From contig CAJXKK010000005.1 of NCBI GenBank assembly GCA_913055615.1, positions 55,207 through 119,206 of the forward strand: DNA of 64,000 bases. Reading direction: 5' to 3'. Positions 8,022 to 64,000 of the stretch are shown here, piece by piece (position 1 is the first letter of the stretch; each line of letters begins with the position of its first letter). The notes beneath the pieces are model-generated. The model was not told the origin of the DNA, made no database searches, and was given only the letters and a program-made list of their open reading frames with translations. The position numbers were made by a program, and so were the translations under genes. Source of the DNA: an uncultured Ectothiorhodospiraceae bacterium (GTDB lineage: Bacteria > Pseudomonadota > Gammaproteobacteria > XJ16 > Halofilaceae).

Positions 8022-8170
8022 GATCGACGGGCCTCATCGGGATAACTGCGGGAGAGGAATTCTAGCACTCCAGAGGCCTGCAGTGAGGGGCGCGGCCCGC
8101 ATGCACGCATCGCGCCGGCCCCCGGCGCATCAGGCCGGCGCAGCGACGTGCGCGGGGCGCGCAAAGGTAT

Positions 8171-55779: not shown

Positions 55780-55855
55780 GGGCCCGTAGCTCAGTGGTTA
55801 GAGCAGGGAACTCATAATTCCTTGGTCGCTGGTTCGAATCCAGCCGGGCCTACCA
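55780..55855 (+). tRNA. tRNA-Met (elongator, anticodon CAT)
   Basis: A 76-base cloverleaf with encoded CCA. The D arm is GCTCAGTGGTTAGAGC, the anticodon loop ACTCATAAT gives CAT, and the T arm is GCTGGTTCGAATCCAGC. The acceptor has a G-U at its first pair. It marks the left boundary of the low-GC island. tRNA-Ile2 (lysidine-modified CAU) is less likely from the body sequence. Confidence 0.9.
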
Positions 55856-56094
55856 TTAATCAACAAGTTACGACGGCATACATATCGCTGCTCAAGCAAT
55901 GTAGACAGCGTGTAGACGCTACGAGGCACAACGCTTCGCCGCAGCGCCTCGACATCGTCGTACACGATCCGCTACCGACTTTCATGAAGCCACGGTTTGT
56001 GGGCATAGTGCGGTAGCGGAGCACCGACCACCAAGGTTGTGGCCTAAATGATGTAATCCGCGATGCCTTGCTCGTCAGCAAAGGAGCTATCAGA

Positions 56095-57712
56095 TTGGCC
56101 ATCCACATGCTGTTGCTCGACGAGAAATGGTTTGACCCCGTTCGAAGCGGGCGCAAAACCTCCACAATCCGAAGCGGTCACCGGGACCTCAAGTCAGACA
56201 GCTATCTCCTGTTCGTCGCCGCGGTCGACGGGTCTCCAACGTCCCCCCCCCGACAAGCAGCCAGTACGCGTGCGACGCTGCGAACACCTTAAGGTAGCCG
56301 ACCTTTCGGCCGATCATGCTCGTTGCGAGGGGAAACCTGACGTCAACGCTACGCGTGCCGAGCTCGCTGAAATTTACCCCGGGCTTGCGGACGATGACGC
56401 CATTACATTCGTTGAGTTTGACGTCATATTTCCGACGGAAGACATCCACGTACGATACGAGAACATCTCCCCAGACCACTTCGATGCTGCATTACAGGAG
56501 CTAGAACGCGACTTTGGTTGGGCTTCATGGACGACCGACCTCCATGCGATTTGGCAGGCTTTACCATCGCTCGATGCCGCCACTATGCATGATCGGGTGC
56601 CTGTCAGCACCCAAGACCCCGACCCGGAAAGCGGACGAGTCACAGTTTCCTTTCCCGGCACGTTCTTGGATTGGTCATACAATGCCATACCAAGCTTTTT
56701 CGCTCTAATAGCCGGAGACGTACTCGGCGCTCCCAATATGGGACGTAAAGCGGTAGTGGCGTCTTGTACGCTACCTAAATCTGTCAAGGCGCATTTTCTT
56801 GGCCCCCGCCTCGGCATTACTGGCCTCCGCAGTCTCCTTAACGTTCATGATCGGCCCATCGTAGCCTACTCTGTGAAGCCGCGATTTGGACTCAGCACGC
56901 CCGAGTTCGCCACGATATGCAAGATTGCCTCGCAGAGTGGGATCGACATTATTGAAGATGATGAACGGATGTCGAACCAACCCCGTTCACGACTCATCGA
57001 CCGCGCCAAAGCCGCCCTCGATGCTACCGCGGGCACCCATACCATTTACTCAGCGAACATAACAGGACGCGCGGACCATATCGTTAAGGTAGCGGACCAA
57101 CTGATAGATATCGGCGTTCAATGCCTGAAAATCGACGTTCTACCTGCGGGATTCGCCGCACTCCAAGGCGTATCGGAACTGATCCACCACCGCGGCAGTA
57201 ATGTCGCTATTACTGTTTATCCGGCAATGAAGACGCTCTATGAACGGGGCATGCCACGCTCTCTTATTCTCGAGCTCTGCCGCTTGTGTGGCGCAGATGT
57301 CGTGTATGCGGGTGTTCCGCCGATTCCTGAATCCGGTCGCCATCATGATCCCGCGCCGTTTCAACAAGCCGCCAGCCATCACGCGGCCCTAAAGCGCTCT
57401 TCGGAGCTACACAACCCCGTCCTACCGACAATTTCTACGAGTATCACGCCTCTGAACATAGGGGCCTACACCCAGATTGCAGGCCCCAACGTCGGATTCT
57501 TCGTAGGAGGAGGCATTCCCGCGTACCGGGGAACCCTCGCCGACGCATGCACCCTTATCATGCGAGCGCTACGGGATCCAGAGTTTGCGAAGAACATGAA
57601 GGCGGACGAGCAACAGATTCTCGAAGAGTCTTTTGGCGGAAATAGAGTCCTGGATTCCGAGGCATTCCCCGATCAGGCATGGGGCGCGTTTGAGCAGGCA
57701 CGAAGCATATGA
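56095..57712 (+). CDS. ASCH domain fused to a RuBisCO-like protein, interrupted by a frameshift at a C9 run
   Basis: The N-terminal part starts at TTG 56095, eight bases after AAAGGAG, and reads FDPVRSGRKTSTIRSG, a YqfB-like ASCH domain (AGRKTITIR in E. coli YqfB). The frame ends at 56292. From the C run (56243-56251) the next frame continues the same domain (HLKVADLSADHARCEG, RAELAEIYPGL, FVEFDVI) and runs without a start codon into a RuBisCO-superfamily protein: FLGPRLGITGLR, AYSVKPRFGLS, IIEDDERMSNQP, FFVGGGIP. One C fewer joins the parts into one protein of about 538 residues. The Lys of KPxxGLS is kept (56876-56878), but the carbamylated Lys of KDDE is Glu (56954-56956), so CO2 fixation is not expected. 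The stop overlaps the next gene (ATGA). Confidence 0.8.
56243..56251 (+). repeat. Poly-C tract (nine C) at the ASCH-RLP frameshift
   Basis: Nine C residues inside the ASCH coding part. With nine the two frames are out of register; with eight they are in register. This is a slippage-prone site, or a sequencing or assembly error. Confidence 0.9.
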
Positions 57713-58158
57713 GCACTGAGGTAGCGAGTGTTTTACTTCAGATCTCCGCGGCGATCCTAGCCGCGCATGTCGCCGTGGCGACACTTCTCCCGCATGTCAT
57801 CAAGAAACTTTCGGAAGCAGGCGAACAGTACACCGGCACAGGCTCTTCAGAAGCTCGCTTTCTCGAGCGCTATCACAAACCCGTCCGTATCTTCACGTTT
57901 CTTGCACAGGGATTCTGGATAAGTTACATCCTTTCTGGAGCAAGCGCCCTAACGCTAGCAATACATATCGGATTTTCAGATATACCCTGCACTTCATTTA
58001 CGTGCCATATTCTGTGGGCCCCATATATTGCGGCGGTTTTAGTCGCCTCCGCATTGACAACGTTGTTAGCTATAACCTGTGTGGCGTTGTATGTACTTTC
58101 ACTTGCAAGTCGTGACCTGATGCATGATCTGCTTGATGAAAAGCGCGGGAATCAGTAA
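57709..58158 (+). CDS. Island membrane protein with three transmembrane helices
   Basis: Protein of 149 residues, unknown family. Helix 1 spans about 5-30 (LLQISAAILAAHVAVATLLP), helix 2 about 62-88 (FLAQGFWISYILSGASALTL) and helix 3 about 102-132 (APYIAAVLVASALTTLLAIT). The tail is charged (LMHDLLDEKRGNQ). Its ATG overlaps the stop of the RuBisCO-like gene by 4 bases, so the two are coupled and the product may anchor or partner it. Codon use is unlike the GC-rich core. Confidence 0.75.
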   Translation: MSTEVASVLLQISAAILAAHVAVATLLPHVIKKLSEAGEQYTGTGSSEARFLERYHKPVRIFTFLAQGFWISYILSGASALTLAIHIGFSDIPCTSFTCHILWAPYIAAVLVASALTTLLAITCVALYVLSLASRDLMHDLLDEKRGNQ

Positions 58159-58171
58159 GGCTATATAAACC

Positions 58172-58915
58172 ATGTTTAGACAACACACGCCGGTTTCCGG
58201 TACTTCGTATCGCCTATACAGGGACGCTGAGGGGACGGTTATCATCCCCCCGGGATACAACATCCGGGATAATGACTCGGTTTACCGCTCCCAAACGGCC
58301 GTACAACTCGATCGACAGAGCGGGACTGCACGACTAAAGGATGGGGTCGTTCATGTGCCGGGCGGAACTGCGGTACTGCATCCCTATTTCCATACAACAT
58401 GGCTGGACCGGAACAGCGAAAAACTCGATTTGCACATAGCCGTCGATCTATCCATGAGACTGGAATGTGCAGCAGTATTGCGTAGATCTCACTACCTTGG
58501 TGACTCGCCCGGCGTCTATATCTATGCTCGCAGGAATCACGGGATCATTGGTGTTGTGGCCCTTTCACGCCTTCCTCCTCACATGAGGCCCGCAGATCGC
58601 AAGGCAATCGAACGTGATCGAGGTGGTTATATCGAAGCACTGTGGCTGAGGCGGGTCTGCGTAGTACCCGAGGAAGTAGGCACGGGTGTTGGTACTGCGC
58701 TTGTCCAGGCTTCGTTAGAATTCGCCCAAGATCGCTGGGTACCCAAGCCTGCCATAGCGGAACTTATCGCGACGGATCCGAATCATAGTTTTCTCCTCAA
58801 GGCGGGCTTTAGCAAGGCCCCAGAGGGTCGCCGCGGAAGGTTAGGTTTTGTAGAGTCGGATGGCAGCCGAGTCTACAAACAGGCGAATAAGTACTATTAC
58901 TGGCGCGATCTCTAG
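58172..58915 (+). CDS. GNAT-fold acetyltransferase
   Basis: Protein of 247 residues. The N-terminal 85 residues are unassigned. The GNAT core has LRRSHYLGDSPGVYIYARR near residue 103, the acceptor-strand region ALWLRRVCVVPEEVGTGVGT near 151 with the acetyl-CoA pyrophosphate loop (EEVGTGVGTAL), and SFLLKAGFSKA near 209. The RxSHYLG motif recalls GNAT domains found with ASCH or ATPase partners in mobile DNA. The substrate is unknown. It lies 13 bases after the membrane gene and 13 before an ASCH gene. Confidence 0.8.
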   Translation: MFRQHTPVSGTSYRLYRDAEGTVIIPPGYNIRDNDSVYRSQTAVQLDRQSGTARLKDGVVHVPGGTAVLHPYFHTTWLDRNSEKLDLHIAVDLSMRLECAAVLRRSHYLGDSPGVYIYARRNHGIIGVVALSRLPPHMRPADRKAIERDRGGYIEALWLRRVCVVPEEVGTGVGTALVQASLEFAQDRWVPKPAIAELIATDPNHSFLLKAGFSKAPEGRRGRLGFVESDGSRVYKQANKYYYWRDL

Positions 58916-58928
58916 CATCGCAGCGCTT

Positions 58929-59291
58929 ATGGCGAAAGAAATGAGTACACGAGTTTTCGTACCGCTTACGACTCGCGCATATGAGTGGTTCATGTCAGGG
59001 TCGAAGGAGTACGAGTTGCGCCGGGCGCGACGACAATTCCGCCCGGAGAATCTTCGTCGCGGACGCGACGTAGAGTTGAGGCGAGGATACTCGGGCGCAA
59101 GCATATGGGGTTCTGTAGGCGATGTGGTGGTTGCCGACGACCTCGGAAGCATTTTTGCCTCGATCGAGTACACGCGAGTCGTCCCCGATGCCTCATCTAT
59201 GGAGGACGCTATCCAGACGGCAATACAGTTCGTTGGTGAAAACGGGCCGTATGTAGCCTTCGAAGTTCAGCAAAACCGCTCTCAACAATGA
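58929..59291 (+). CDS. ASCH domain-containing protein
   Basis: Protein of 120 residues made of one ASCH domain (PUA-like fold). It has VPLTTRAYEWFMSGSKEYEL followed by RR, the typical GxKxxELRR element, then RRGRDVELRRGYSG and a C-terminal strand YVAFEVQQN. ASCH domains bind or process nucleosides and RNA; E. coli YqfB is an N4-acetylcytidine amidohydrolase. The ATG at 58929 is chosen because earlier starts lie inside the GNAT gene; an ATG at 58941 is also possible. No strong ribosome site is seen, so translation may be coupled. Confidence 0.75.
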   Translation: MAKEMSTRVFVPLTTRAYEWFMSGSKEYELRRARRQFRPENLRRGRDVELRRGYSGASIWGSVGDVVVADDLGSIFASIEYTRVVPDASSMEDAIQTAIQFVGENGPYVAFEVQQNRSQQ

Positions 59292-59333: not shown

Positions 59334-60149
59334 ATGGGTATAGAAAACAGCAATGATCTTTTTACTTTGCATCCGGGCGCTCGCATCCCCAAGAGCGAAC
59401 TTTATGATCTGATCCAATATTCAAAAGTGGAAGGTTCTTCGCAATGGCTAGGAGAGGCGTCTTCGATCGGCAATACTCCCCAACAGGGAATTAACTGGAT
59501 CGGGTCTGCAGAATCTCCAAAGGGTGTAATCATAAAGACCAGTCCCGGACGGTACCCACAAGATGGGTGGATCGGATCTGCCGGCGAGTATTACCGATAC
59601 TCGTTCAAGGCGATCAAGGGAAAGGTCAGTCTTCAACACAAGCCGAATCAGGTTCTCGTTCAACAACCACGGCTACAGTATCCGGTTTTCCTTTTTATCC
59701 AAGACAAGGGCCAGTGGCTGTTCGAGGGCTTTTACACGGTCCATACGGTCGAGGACTCGTCGGTCATTTTGAACCGCGTTCCTATCCTGAACGCCCAAGA
59801 AAGTTCACCGCATGGGGAACCGACGGGTAAATCCGAGGGTACTCGGCGGTATGTGACGCACATTGTGGCGGAGCGAAACAAGAGTCTTGTTAAGGCGGTC
59901 AAGGAAGCTCGTGAATGGGTATGCGATATCTGTGGCACCGACTTTAAGACGGTATATGGAACCCCTTATATCGAAGCCCATCACAAGGTCCCGGTTTCCC
60001 AGCTTCCGGAAGCCCACGAATCGCGGCCCGAGGATTTCGCGCTGCTCTGCCCAAACTGTCACACGGCCGTTCATATCCGGATGCGTCAAGCGGAAGAGAA
60101 CTACGCCGAGAGCAAGGAGGCATTGCGCTCACGGTGGTATGAAACCTAG
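59334..60149 (+). CDS. HNH endonuclease, McrA-like, with N-terminal recognition domain
   Basis: Protein of 271 residues. The C-terminal HNH domain has WVCDICGTDFK near residue 199, IEAHHKVPVSQL near 218 and FALLCPNCHTAVH near 238: two CxxC zinc pairs plus the catalytic His. The first 150 residues (QQGINWIGSAESPKGV.., EYYRYSFKAIKGKVSLQHKP, WLFEGFYTVHTV) look like the base-recognition domains of McrA-type modification-dependent nucleases, though I cannot name the domain with certainty. It ends the co-directional module. A modification-dependent restriction role is likely but unproven. Confidence 0.8.
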   Translation: MGIENSNDLFTLHPGARIPKSELYDLIQYSKVEGSSQWLGEASSIGNTPQQGINWIGSAESPKGVIIKTSPGRYPQDGWIGSAGEYYRYSFKAIKGKVSLQHKPNQVLVQQPRLQYPVFLFIQDKGQWLFEGFYTVHTVEDSSVILNRVPILNAQESSPHGEPTGKSEGTRRYVTHIVAERNKSLVKAVKEAREWVCDICGTDFKTVYGTPYIEAHHKVPVSQLPEAHESRPEDFALLCPNCHTAVHIRMRQAEENYAESKEALRSRWYET

Positions 60150-60472: not shown

Positions 60473-62278
60473 TTAGCCAACGCCGTCCTCAGCTTCCACG
60501 ATTCCCATCCGCACCGCGTAGAACCGGATCCGCATGTCGCCCTTGGCCGGTATGGACCGCTTGCTCGTATGCCTTCCGCCCTCATTTGTCGCCAATAACC
60601 CACGCTCCTTGAGCGCGGTGCTGACCTGTCGTGGATCCATGCCCTGGCACGCCTCCGCGAACCCTTCCGGCGTGAACAGGTACAGTTGGTATCGTTTGTC
60701 GATGTAGCCCACGAGGTCACGCACGTCCGGGCCGCCGCTGTCGCTGGCGTCGGCAAACCGACTGCCGTGGCGAAGAATAAAGTCACGGACCGTCATGACG
60801 CCCCGCTCGCCCTCGGCGATATGGCCACCGTCTGCGAGCCAACCGCGCCGCACAAAGTCGACGGCGTTTCCGATTTCCGCGGGCTCAAGCGGCACGATGC
60901 CCGCTTCCGCGGCCCATTCACCGGCAACCAGAACCAGAGCGAGGCGATCCAGTGCTCGGACCGCCTCAGCCGGTAGACCGGATACCGCGAGCCGTGTCCA
61001 TGCTTCCTCAAGTCGGTTCCGGACAGCCTCCGATAACGCTGCCTCCGTCGAGTATCCGCCAATCAGCGCCTCCAGGAATGCCGGCCCGGCGGTTCCGTAA
61101 CAGTCGGCACAGGCGCTTTTAAGGGCCTGCGCGTAGGCAGCTGGGTCACTCCCAGGGGCGGGCGCGGTTATCACGCTGCCACCAGCGGGAAGATCCATGA
61201 AGCGGACACGCTGCCCGGCGCGGGGTTGCCGCCCACCGTCCTGCCGGACACGCTGGGCAACGGATATCTCGCCCGTAGACAGAACCAGACTCCGCCACGA
61301 GCGCACCTGCCTGAGCGCACGCTCGCTGTTCATGGCCGCCTTGCCCTGTCCACCCATCAGGTCGTACACGAGGCGGCCGAAATCCTGCGTGCCGGAGGTC
61401 CCGATCTCGTCGAGCACCAGCAACCCGTCATTGTGCGCGGCGGCCAGGCCCTCAAGGGCATTGGCTGTCGTGTTCCATCGGCGGATATACGCTTTATCGG
61501 ACTCCGCCCCCGGATCGGCTCCACAGCCCCACACGCTCGCGGCAACCTGCGCGGCCGTGGTTTTCCCATGCGAGGAACGGCCATAAAGGTGGAAGCCGCC
61601 GGCCTCGAGCCGGGCGGGCTTCAGCAAAGGCGCGGCGAACGACACCGACAACGCGAACACCAGGAACGGATTGCCGGCGAGCGGCGAGGCTACTTTATGC
61701 TGCCACGCCTCAAGCGTGCCCTGGGTCCGCATGGTGTCCGCGGAAGGGCTGTGGCGTTCCGGCTGGAAATGGATGGGCTCCGCGTTGTCTCCTCCGATCA
61801 CCTGCGCGGGCAGCACATACGCCATGCCCGTGCCGAAGGTGGACTCGGCCAGCCAACCGACCCGGTCCACGCTGCGTACCCGCTCCCTCGGCTCAAAAGT
61901 GCCCAGGTAGGTCATCAGCGCGCGTTCCTTACCCGGCACGACTGCGAGCCCCAGGTCCGCGAGGTCCTGGACAAGTGTTCCGCTGCTTTCGTGCAGCCGT
62001 GACCTCGCGATCGCCAGCTGGCGGCGGTGGCCGTCCGAATCGAGCCACTCCAGTAGCAGGCCCCAGTTGCGACCTTCCCCGCTCCGCGCCTGAGCTGTCA
62101 CCCACACCGGACCAGCGATCAGAACCGGTGAGCCTTTGGGGCCGGTCGGTTCCAGAAACACCCCGCGGTCCGAAAGCGTGTAGCCGGGCGGCGTCTCGAT
62201 CCCGCTCCACGCATCATCGGCGGCCGAGGGAAAGTTCGTGACCGTGGCTGTGGAGATCTCGTCAGGATGTTCACTCAT
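60473..62278 (-). CDS. DUF927 domain-containing ATPase
   Basis: Protein of 601 residues. The N-terminal 200 residues contain YLGTFEPRERVRSVDRVGWL; the P-loop is HLYGRSSHGKTTAAQVAASV near residue 229, followed by RRWNTTANALEGLAAAHNDG and Walker B LLVLDEIG near 287. The C-terminal part ends with a small winged-helix-like region (MDPRQVSTALKERGLL). DUF927 proteins occur in phages and integrative elements next to AlpA regulators and are thought to be replication helicases. GC content is high, unlike the module to its left. Confidence 0.88.
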   Translation of the reverse strand: MSEHPDEISTATVTNFPSAADDAWSGIETPPGYTLSDRGVFLEPTGPKGSPVLIAGPVWVTAQARSGEGRNWGLLLEWLDSDGHRRQLAIARSRLHESSGTLVQDLADLGLAVVPGKERALMTYLGTFEPRERVRSVDRVGWLAESTFGTGMAYVLPAQVIGGDNAEPIHFQPERHSPSADTMRTQGTLEAWQHKVASPLAGNPFLVFALSVSFAAPLLKPARLEAGGFHLYGRSSHGKTTAAQVAASVWGCGADPGAESDKAYIRRWNTTANALEGLAAAHNDGLLVLDEIGTSGTQDFGRLVYDLMGGQGKAAMNSERALRQVRSWRSLVLSTGEISVAQRVRQDGGRQPRAGQRVRFMDLPAGGSVITAPAPGSDPAAYAQALKSACADCYGTAGPAFLEALIGGYSTEAALSEAVRNRLEEAWTRLAVSGLPAEAVRALDRLALVLVAGEWAAEAGIVPLEPAEIGNAVDFVRRGWLADGGHIAEGERGVMTVRDFILRHGSRFADASDSGGPDVRDLVGYIDKRYQLYLFTPEGFAEACQGMDPRQVSTALKERGLLATNEGGRHTSKRSIPAKGDMRIRFYAVRMGIVEAEDGVG

Positions 62279-62427
62279 GCTTCGCCCCCTTTAGCATCGC
62301 TGTCCGCCCGGTTCGACGCCCTATAGGGGCGTTTTCCCCCTATAGGGCCTTCCGGAAACCGCGGCCGCCCGAAAGTCACTCGCACGGCCAGCGCCGCCGC
62401 CAGCAACAACCCTTTAGCGGCATACAT
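62275..62427 (-). CDS. Short ORF linking AlpA and DUF927 genes
   Basis: A frame of 50 residues starts with an ATG inside the last codons of the AlpA gene and ends overlapping the DUF927 start (ATGA). It begins MYAAKGLLLAAALAVRV, a possible short hydrophobic helix, then is basic and polar (GGKRPYRASNRADSDAKGGE). The two overlaps suggest it is translated, but a chance frame in GC-rich DNA cannot be excluded. It contains the TATAGGG palindrome. Confidence 0.4.
   Translation of the reverse strand: MYAAKGLLLAAALAVRVTFGRPRFPEGPIGGKRPYRASNRADSDAKGGEA
62318..62348. promoter_or_regulatory. Perfect 12-bp inverted repeat GCCCTATAGGGG
   Basis: GCCCTATAGGGG (62318-62329) and its exact inverse (62337-62348) are separated by 7 bases, just upstream of the DUF927 gene and inside the short ORF. 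Each arm is itself nearly palindromic (CCCTATAGGG). A repressor site or RNA hairpin controlling the replication gene is possible. Confidence 0.5.
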
Positions 62428-62632
62428 GGCTAAAGCTCCCGTCATCGCTGGTGGACCGCCGGACCTGACCGGCCAGATAACGATCGAGTTCTTCGGCCCG
62501 ATAGCGGACGGCGCGGGAACCTACCCGAACAAAGGGAATCCGGGCTCCCGCCCAACGGTCCCGCTCAAGGAAAGACTTGCTCATGCCGATATATTCGGCG
62601 GCTTCTTCAGTCGTAAGTAGGGCTGGTTTCAT
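62414..62632 (-). CDS. AlpA-type helix-turn-helix regulator/excisionase
   Basis: Protein of 72 residues. The MerR-like winged helix reads LLTTEEAAEYIGMSKSFLER, then IPFVRVGSRAVRYRAEELDR, as in AlpA/excisionase proteins that control integrase genes or excision of P4-like elements. The start ATG at 62632 has GGAG six bases upstream. It precedes the short ORF and DUF927 gene in one operon. Confidence 0.88.
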   Translation of the reverse strand: MKPALLTTEEAAEYIGMSKSFLERDRWAGARIPFVRVGSRAVRYRAEELDRYLAGQVRRSTSDDGSFSHVCR

Positions 62633-62784
62633 CTTGCTCTCCGTTTGCTGTCGTAAGACACAACGGAGAATGCGGAGACGCAGGGCGACAAAGAATTGCT
62701 CGAGCCACCCGGGGTATACCGCGAGCGGCCACGGGTATACTTCCGGCGGGCCGAGGGATACCCGGTGTCGATTGGTCGTTAGAG

Positions 62785-63540
62785 TTACGCTTGGCTCTGG
62801 CGGCGGTGTCGCCCGATCCACTTGGCTATCTGATGCACTGGATCATCAGTGGTCAGGACGCCGTCCACCTCATCCTGAAAGAGCTGATACAGGCGCTTAG
62901 CGGCACCACGGTCTGAACGTCGACCACCAGCCATCTGGGCGTCGTAGTGCGTCAATAATCGTCTGCGAAGCTCATCAAATGGGCGCATCGCCGCCTGTTT
63001 CCCCCGCCCTCCTCGCTGTCGCTGCGTATCGAGATACGCCGCGTAACAGACCGCCTCAAGGGCTTCCATAGCAGTTCCCCACCGGCGCCAATCGTGCCGC
63101 TGCTGCTCCTCGTGCAGGTCGAGTTCCGAGACCAAAGCACTTCCGTGGATTTCTTCCCAGGACTGACCTTCGTAATACAACTCCTCCCCAACAGAGGCGA
63201 GCGCGAGGAGCGCAAAGTAGTCAGGCCATGTTGCACGAGGGAAACCCGTCTGACCCTTAAGATCGAACACCGGGATCAATCGGCTTAATGCCTTGGCGCG
63301 GTTCATGAATACGGCCTCGCCGTGTTCACCCCCACGAATTTCGGCCATGAATCGTTGGCCACCTTGCCCCAGCAGCCAATGGAGCGAGTCAAGCCCGTTT
63401 TCGATTTGCTCGTAAGAGCGTCCAGACAGGACAATTCGAGCCCGCGCGAGTTGATCGCCAAACTGGAATGCCAGAGCGCCGTCCAATTCTGTGTCGAAAT
63501 AGTCGAAGTGTTCACTACGCTCGTACAGAACAAATTCCAT
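62785..63540 (-). CDS. Island protein of unknown function
   Basis: Protein of 251 residues beginning MEFVLYERSEHFDYFDTELD. It is soluble, rich in Trp, Arg and Glu, with helical segments such as WRRWGTAMEALEAVCYAAYL and a basic C-terminus (KWIGRHRRQSQA). I do not recognise a family. The N-terminal third could be a small recognition domain and the rest helical. Located between AlpA and the HIT gene, all on the minus strand. Confidence 0.6.
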   Translation of the reverse strand: MEFVLYERSEHFDYFDTELDGALAFQFGDQLARARIVLSGRSYEQIENGLDSLHWLLGQGGQRFMAEIRGGEHGEAVFMNRAKALSRLIPVFDLKGQTGFPRATWPDYFALLALASVGEELYYEGQSWEEIHGSALVSELDLHEEQQRHDWRRWGTAMEALEAVCYAAYLDTQRQRGGRGKQAAMRPFDELRRRLLTHYDAQMAGGRRSDRGAAKRLYQLFQDEVDGVLTTDDPVHQIAKWIGRHRRQSQA

Positions 63541-63597: not shown

Positions 63598-64000
63598 TCA
63601 TGTCCCTTCCTGGTAATCGCCTTTATCCGGGATCGTGTGGCGCACACCCCCACGAGGGCTCGTGACGTCACCGTTGCGGCGGGGAATCAGGTGCACGTGA
63701 CAGTGAAACACCGTTTGCCCCGCCGATGCCCCGATATTCACGCCAATGTTGAAACCAGAGACCTCCGGATCGCGCTCTTCGATTTTATGACGTGCCTCGG
63801 TGATAAGCGCATTCACCGCATTGACTTCCGACTGAAAGAGGCTGAAGTAATCGGCCTGATGACGTTTAGGGATTACGAGGGCGTGCAGTGGCGTTACCGG
63901 GTAGCCATCCAACAGCGCGTACGCCAGTTCGTTCTCGGCAATTTGGCGATCGGCCGGCGGCGCGCAGAAGACACAGTCAGCCTCTCGGTGCTCAAAGGAC
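63598..64000 (-). CDS. HIT family protein, N-terminus beyond window
   Basis: Histidine triad protein, 133 residues visible, still open at the right edge. The active-site motif is GQTVFHCHVHLIPRR near the C-terminal end. A CxxC pair (DCVFCAPP) near the edge is the zinc site typical of bacterial HIT proteins. The segment HALVIPKRHQADYFSL is characteristic. Such proteins hydrolyse nucleoside phosphoramidates or dinucleoside polyphosphates. An internal ATG at 63912 is not the real start because the upstream frame keeps the family sequence. Confidence 0.9.
   Translation of the reverse strand, partial: SFEHREADCVFCAPPADRQIAENELAYALLDGYPVTPLHALVIPKRHQADYFSLFQSEVNAVNALITEARHKIEERDPEVSGFNIGVNIGASAGQTVFHCHVHLIPRRNGDVTSPRGGVRHTIPDKGDYQEGT

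Follow-up and report, generated by a model that had tools for sequence, protein, structure and literature searches.

What does a RuBisCO-like protein (RLP) do in a group of genes carried beside a tRNA gene? The question is raised by a locus in the 64-kb window (the whole stretch of DNA analysed, 64,000 nucleotides), for which the original prediction proposed a single ASCH–RLP protein in a tRNA-linked island. The new result, judged from sequence comparison, is a conserved five-module cassette comprising a GNAT-family protein, two ASCH modules (ASCH-A and ASCH-B), the RLP and a small membrane protein. The ASCH–RLP pair proved too narrow a unit, as the cassette also takes in the membrane protein, the GNAT and the second ASCH module (57709-59291).

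The RLP itself is a member of the RuBisCO superfamily, as predicted. Its frame (56063-57712, P0001) contains all the landmarks cited earlier (GPRLGITG, VKPRFGLS, EDDERMSNQP and VGGGIP) and matches Pfam RuBisCO_large over residues 251-417 (E 2e-20, 73.5 bits). The RLPs of the three cassettes described below are all above the cut-off of that model, 30.1 bits (73.5 in the window, 75.9 and 38.2 in the others). A sequence search of the PDB with the window RLP matches RuBisCOs and RLPs with E down to 2e-24. Its NCBIfam scores are far under the curated cut-offs, both for rubisco_III (122.4 bits, cut-off 497) and for the MtnW models TIGR03332 (65.6 bits, cut-off 513.6) and PRK09549 (91.1 bits, cut-off 409), in agreement with the view that the protein falls outside both RuBisCO and the MtnW enolases. 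At the three cassette loci, neither the ORFs nor the annotations include a recognisable methionine-salvage neighbour. AlphaFold predicts the RLP part with a mean pLDDT of 49.8, higher in the core; its N-terminal domain is not reliably modelled. With this model, the best 50 Foldseek matches are RuBisCO/RLP entries (E down to 1e-13), one of them, 8uhi, being titled for another protein, and VIA-align against RuBisCO/RLP structures gives Z 24.5 over ~300 residues. A RuBisCO-type (beta/alpha)8 barrel, the fold expected earlier for the C-terminal part, is predicted for the window RLP.

In RuBisCO, the active-site carboxylate is a carbamate formed on Lys201 from CO2. The site of the cassette RLPs was read in spinach numbering from alignments of the three proteins with one another and with ordinary RuBisCOs and RLPs, at positions that we take to be correctly assigned by motif matching. 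All three retain Lys175, Asp203 and the GG phosphate loop (Gly403-Gly404). They also have in common the replacements Lys201 to Glu, Lys177 to Arg, Asn205 to Arg, Asn123 to Asp, His294-Arg295 to Tyr-Pro and His327 to Tyr, together with the loss of the loop-6 Lys334. The RuBisCO hallmarks of forms I-III (Lys201, Lys334, His294-Arg295 and His327) are therefore all absent. The alignments agree with what had been read in the window (Glu at the position of the carbamylated Lys, VYP in the H294/R295 region and AGVPPIP, devoid of Lys, in loop 6), and extend the Glu to all three proteins. The sole difference among the three sites concerns Glu204, one of the residues whose roles in RuBisCO are confirmed, along with K201 and D203 (PMC8920986). 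It is retained in two of the three and is Thr in the Salinibacter RLP (L020:8654-10063), where metal binding is therefore doubtful and the site may be incomplete. The RLPs of the two relatives are 21-30% identical to that of the window, yet have the altered site in common. Glu at 201 occurs in none of the ordinary RuBisCO and RLP sequences compared, which have Lys there, and a literature search without most subscription journals found no published RLP with a Lys201-to-Glu change. As far as alignments tell, the site is a coherent alteration, not decay.

The organisation of the cassette emerges from its relatives. In Anaerobacterium chartisolvens (L016), the order is GNAT-like protein, 234-aa double-ASCH protein, 449-aa RLP and membrane protein, and the same order is found on the Salinibacter ruber plasmid pSR67 (L020), located with the Anaerobacterium double-ASCH protein. 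The window order (ASCH-B/RLP, membrane protein, GNAT, ASCH-A) is a circular permutation of that of the relatives, broken between ASCH-A and ASCH-B. In the Anaerobacterium double-ASCH protein, the N-terminal half corresponds to the window ASCH-A gene (36% identity, E 4e-26) and the C-terminal half to the window ASCH at 56095 (E 1e-7). Both complete relatives encode the RLP separately, so the ASCH–RLP fusion is specific to the window locus and does not hold as a general trait. Homologues with separate ASCH and RLP genes had been named in advance as evidence against the fusion; both relatives are of this kind, and in the window the two are joined. On a Piscirickettsia salmonis plasmid (L036:5806-6908), a C-terminal RLP remnant with a membrane protein directly behind it sits among transposases/insertion sequences and an integrase. 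Each of the four loci seen thus has a membrane protein behind the RLP; these proteins have no clear sequence similarity among cassettes and are therefore linked by position alone. The GNAT proteins (247-343 aa) are weakly similar (23-24% identity), with a GxGxGT motif in common.

Table 1. Features of the island and its cassette (window coordinates unless prefixed L043).
Feature	Position	Strand	Evidence or remark
tRNA-Met (CAT)	55780..55855	+	ARAGORN
attL of the island (3' part of tRNA-Met)	55814-55856	+	43-bp perfect repeat
Shine-Dalgarno (AAAGGAG) and TTG start (56095) of the ASCH-B/RLP gene	56079..56097	+	Sequence
ASCH-B, N-terminal half, in a frame other than that of the RLP	56095..56251	+	Pfam ASCH profile 3-35
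C9 run separating the frames of the ASCH halves, which a run of eight Cs would unite	56243..56251	+	Sequence
ASCH-B, C-terminal half, in the RLP frame	56252..56428	+	Pfam ASCH profile 48-102
RLP with altered active site	56405..57712	+	Pfam, NCBIfam, PDB sequence search, alignments, Foldseek, VIA-align
RLP site codons (GG loop retained)	E201 56954; YP 57218; Y327 57305	+	Alignment
Small membrane protein, starting inside the RLP stop (ATGA overlap)	57709..58158	+	ORF, hydropathy
GNAT-family acetyltransferase-like protein	58172..58915	+	Pfam Acetyltransf_1 9e-6; BLASTP to Anaerobacterium GNAT-like protein 3e-5
ASCH-A module (K-E-x-E-L-R type), likely start ATG 58929	58929..59291	+	36% identity, E 4e-26
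HNH endonuclease, island cargo, absent from the other two cassettes	59334..60149	+	Pfam HNH 8e-8
DUF927/Cch primase-helicase of the island	60473..62278	-	Pfam DUF927 6e-67; PHROG DNA primase
AlpA-like HTH_17 regulator	62414..62821	-	Pfam HTH_17 7e-10
HNH-HIT protein	63598-64000 and L043:3-812	-	HNH nuclease domain, then HIT domain
attR (43-bp perfect repeat)	L043:2753-2795 (~66546 in window coordinates)		Adjoins tyrosine integrase

Three complete cassettes were found, in three phyla, each close to defence genes or on mobile DNA. When 84,980 species genomes were scanned with a pattern, a search that reaches close relatives only, a single relative emerged, Anaerobacterium chartisolvens. In the phylum of the window, the cassette is present in 1 of 398 and 1 of 329 sampled genomes, the window's own both times. 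Searches with RLP profiles in 398 genomes of this phylum and 391 of the Anaerobacterium class, and with a three-member RLP profile in the Anaerobacterium phylum and the window's class, recovered the seed cassettes only, and no cassette relatives were found in phage records, nor in viral contigs with five different queries. Of the further profile matches, those with the motif read out are ordinary RuBisCOs or RLPs with KDDE. A 595-aa frame in another locus (L003), considered as an ASCH fusion, is actually an RLP of MtnW-like type that carries an additional aldolase-like part at its C-terminus. There (L003:1219-2988) the MtnW-type RLP and the aldolase-like part form one 589-aa frame that adjoins an acireductone-dioxygenase-like gene; in L002 they are separate genes. 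To judge from the genomes sampled, the cassette is rare and horizontally moving. In a tree, the three cassette RLPs form one group (100/97 support), but their branches are very long, and joins of such branches may be false according to a warning of the tree program. Comparison of a profile of the window and Anaerobacterium RLPs with the Salinibacter RLP gives 98.3% probability (1e-14). The site residues and neighbours that the three have in common are stronger evidence of common descent than the tree.

In the window, the cassette belongs to a 10.7-kb island inserted in tRNA-Met. The tRNA linkage predicted earlier is substantiated by the 43-bp att repeats and by a tyrosine integrase next to attR, with Arm-DNA-bind_3 and Phage_integrase domains. 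Between the repeats lie the cassette, the HNH gene, the DUF927 primase-helicase, the AlpA-like regulator, an uncharacterised gene and the HNH-HIT protein, and over the cassette the GC content drops from ~69% to 53%. The N-terminal ~160 residues of the HNH endonuclease are free of any assigned domain, and the HNH-HIT protein is a possible further cargo gene. In a relative of the same genus (G002), the tRNA region is present at 90% identity without the island genes; this relative also lacks another ~5 kb on the far side of attR, and the empty site is therefore not perfectly clean. This stretch, from L043 ~2795 to a UvrD-like gene at 8066, encodes a KaiC-like ATPase and GGDEF-type proteins. The Anaerobacterium cassette has an Mrr-type nuclease and a WYL regulator as neighbours, and that of pSR67 has HsdM-N and RAMA/DUF4357 fragments and a Cas4-like protein. 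Such surroundings suggest a part in defence. PADLOC 2023 (later systems being outside its coverage) gives no convincing match for the RLP, ASCH, GNAT or membrane proteins; its weak matches link the Anaerobacterium GNAT-like protein with methyltransferase models and one membrane protein with ThsA.

A hint to the compound on which the cassette may act comes from ASCH-B. By profile, it is nearest to the N4-acetylcytidine amidohydrolase YqfB (1te7 and 9kyf), in a weak match (E 0.005). The catalytic residues of YqfB are Lys21, Thr24, Arg26 and Glu74 (PMC6972931). The G-x-K-x-x-T-x-R motif reads GRKTSTIR in the window, GKKKSTIR in Anaerobacterium and GEKVTTVR in Salinibacter, with Lys, Thr and Arg in all three; the equivalent of Glu74, placed by eye, is Glu in the window and Asp in the other two. 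Because of this proximity to YqfB and of the Lys, Thr and Arg residues, ASCH-B is a candidate for binding a modified nucleoside or removing its acyl group. For the double-ASCH protein, AlphaFold gives a poor model (pLDDT 44.5), for which Foldseek yields only hints of ASCH structures.

The best reading of the whole, which we hold tentatively, is a mobile conflict or defence cassette acting on a modified nucleotide. The ASCH modules would recognise or deacylate a modified nucleoside or nucleotide, and the RLP would act on the sugar-phosphate side of the same compound. Glu201 would permanently provide the carboxylate that RuBisCO makes from CO2; standing in place of the CO2-derived carbamate, it would free the RLP from the need for CO2 activation. 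Both the groups that surround the second phosphate and the loop-6 Lys are gone, which speaks for a monophosphate enolase or isomerase rather than a carboxylase of bisphosphates. The RLP would thus be an enolase or isomerase that depends on a metal but not on CO2 and works on a singly phosphorylated compound. The GNAT and the membrane protein may modify and execute or transport. The permutation in the window joined ASCH-B to the RLP instead of to ASCH-A; because two genomes have ASCH-B fused to ASCH-A and the third has it fused to the RLP, these proteins may well share one substrate or complex. Conflict with phages or other mobile DNA is the most likely role because the cassette is cargo adjoining restriction genes. 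As the defence reading draws on company and mobility alone, confidence in it is modest. The more specific proposal of a new mobile anti-phage or anti-plasmid system, in which the Glu201 RLP, two ASCH modules, acetyltransferase and membrane protein would detect and process a modified nucleotide of the invader, is possible, with greater doubt attached.

Acetyl transfer, ASCH modules and a sugar-phosphate enzyme would suit a salvage operon too. Here ASCH-B would deacylate N-acylated cytidine-type nucleosides, the GNAT would acylate or sense them, the RLP would isomerise the leftover sugar phosphate and the membrane protein would be a transporter, mobility being incidental to nucleoside salvage or detoxification. 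The YqfB-type Lys-Thr-Arg and acidic residue of ASCH-B fit this scheme, known RLPs work in sugar-phosphate and methionine salvage (PMC6302742), and no known system is found among the neighbours of the window cassette. It is nevertheless rather unlikely: no kinase, phosphorylase or phosphatase salvage genes are recognised at the three cassette loci, all three cassettes adjoin restriction/defence or mobile genes, and their rarity is unlike that of a useful salvage path. Far less probable still is a toxin-antitoxin type module with the GNAT as toxin, the ASCH proteins reversing or neutralising its action and the RLP and membrane protein as accessories. A small mobile cassette in which an acetyltransferase-like gene adjoins ASCH genes at all three loci is consistent with it; against it stand the size and strong divergence of the GNATs, the lack of a match of the window GNAT to any known GNAT toxin family in Pfam and NCBIfam, and the five modules, a large number for such a role.

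Other alternatives concern the window copy itself. The ASCH C-terminal half (residues 68-122 of frame 56063-57712, Pfam profile 48-102 of 103) is in frame with the RLP, and no ATG, GTG or TTG separates the two in this frame, as the original prediction had noted. The last upstream start, GTG 56270, lies inside ASCH, and the next ATG (56585) is well inside the RLP. The N-terminal half is one frame off, via the C9 run, so that a single ASCH–RLP protein is upheld for one half of the domain and not for the other. Because the halves meet at C9, the whole fusion depends on one homopolymer base. The deposited frame contains half an ASCH domain (21.5 bits, cut-off 21.2, PF04266); with eight Cs, the ASCH domain ahead of the RLP is complete (43.9 bits over profile 3-102). 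An 'eight-C version' is mentioned in the original prediction, which implies that the frameshift was known, but its title and reasoning are silent on it. No paper with both 'RuBisCO-like protein' and 'ASCH domain' was found, again without most subscription journals. The extra C may stem from a sequencing error or a real mutation, or it may reflect a phase switch or recoding. If it were a fixed frameshift, the window copy would be a decaying pseudogene that makes no ASCH–RLP protein, as could be argued from the TTG and Shine-Dalgarno, which sit in a frame ending at 56292, and from the RLP frame, which has no good start of its own. This is distinctly unlikely: the remainder of the gene and the adjoining cassette genes are intact, every clade-specific active-site residue is retained, and the sole lesion is a single base that falls in the window's longest homopolymer, of a kind prone to assembly errors, slippage and phase variation. 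Alternatively, C9 could be a working switch, with slipped-strand phase variation between eight and nine Cs or ribosomal frameshifting setting the amount of full-length ASCH–RLP. No other C or G run in the 64-kb window reaches a length of 7, frames run on both sides and a one-base shift yields a complete ASCH domain. The idea is improbable all the same, as the GC-rich 3.0-Mb genome has 22 overlapping matches to C9-or-longer tracts (~18 distinct), no such run is found at the corresponding place in the stretches read of the two relatives, and the locus is known from one sequence.

The preferred reading, a conflict or defence cassette, would extend the range of the superfamily. RLPs with known function in the literature found belong to carbon or sulfur metabolism. 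If the reading is true, the Glu201 clade, on mobile elements that adjoin restriction genes, would be a first sign of the RuBisCO fold in inter-genome conflict and would probe the reach of the superfamily when CO2 activation is absent. That ASCH-B has moved between ASCH-A and the RLP is a concrete hint as to which proteins cooperate. Collectively, this suggests that a RuBisCO-type enzyme was recruited for a task outside ordinary metabolism.

Parallels with known systems exist at each level. P4-like satellites are defence hotspots (PMC9122126); the island is likewise tRNA-integrated, with tyrosine integrase, AlpA-like regulator, primase-helicase and variable cargo, but its cargo matches no listed defence system. 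BapA, a glucosyl hydrolase of the Brig3 anti-phage operon, has an ASCH fold of two beta-barrels (PMC13160076). The cassette likewise has two ASCH-type barrels in one protein and a defence setting, a likeness drawn by description only, whereas no DNA glycosylase gene is recognised in it. With YqfB-type amidohydrolases, its nearest relatives by profile, ASCH-B shares G-x-K-x-x-T-x-R; it differs in being part of a double-ASCH protein or fused to the RLP, and in the acidic residue, which is Asp in two members. With form IV RLPs (MtnW enolase, Chlorobium RLP 1tel), the cassette RLPs have in common the superfamily, the barrel fold, Lys175, Asp203, the GG phosphate loop and the absence of the loop-6 Lys. 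This absence is expected of non-carboxylases. They depart from form IV in Glu201, where the compared RuBisCO and RLP sequences have Lys, in their linkage to ASCH, GNAT and membrane proteins instead of salvage genes, and in their position as a separate clade on long branches.
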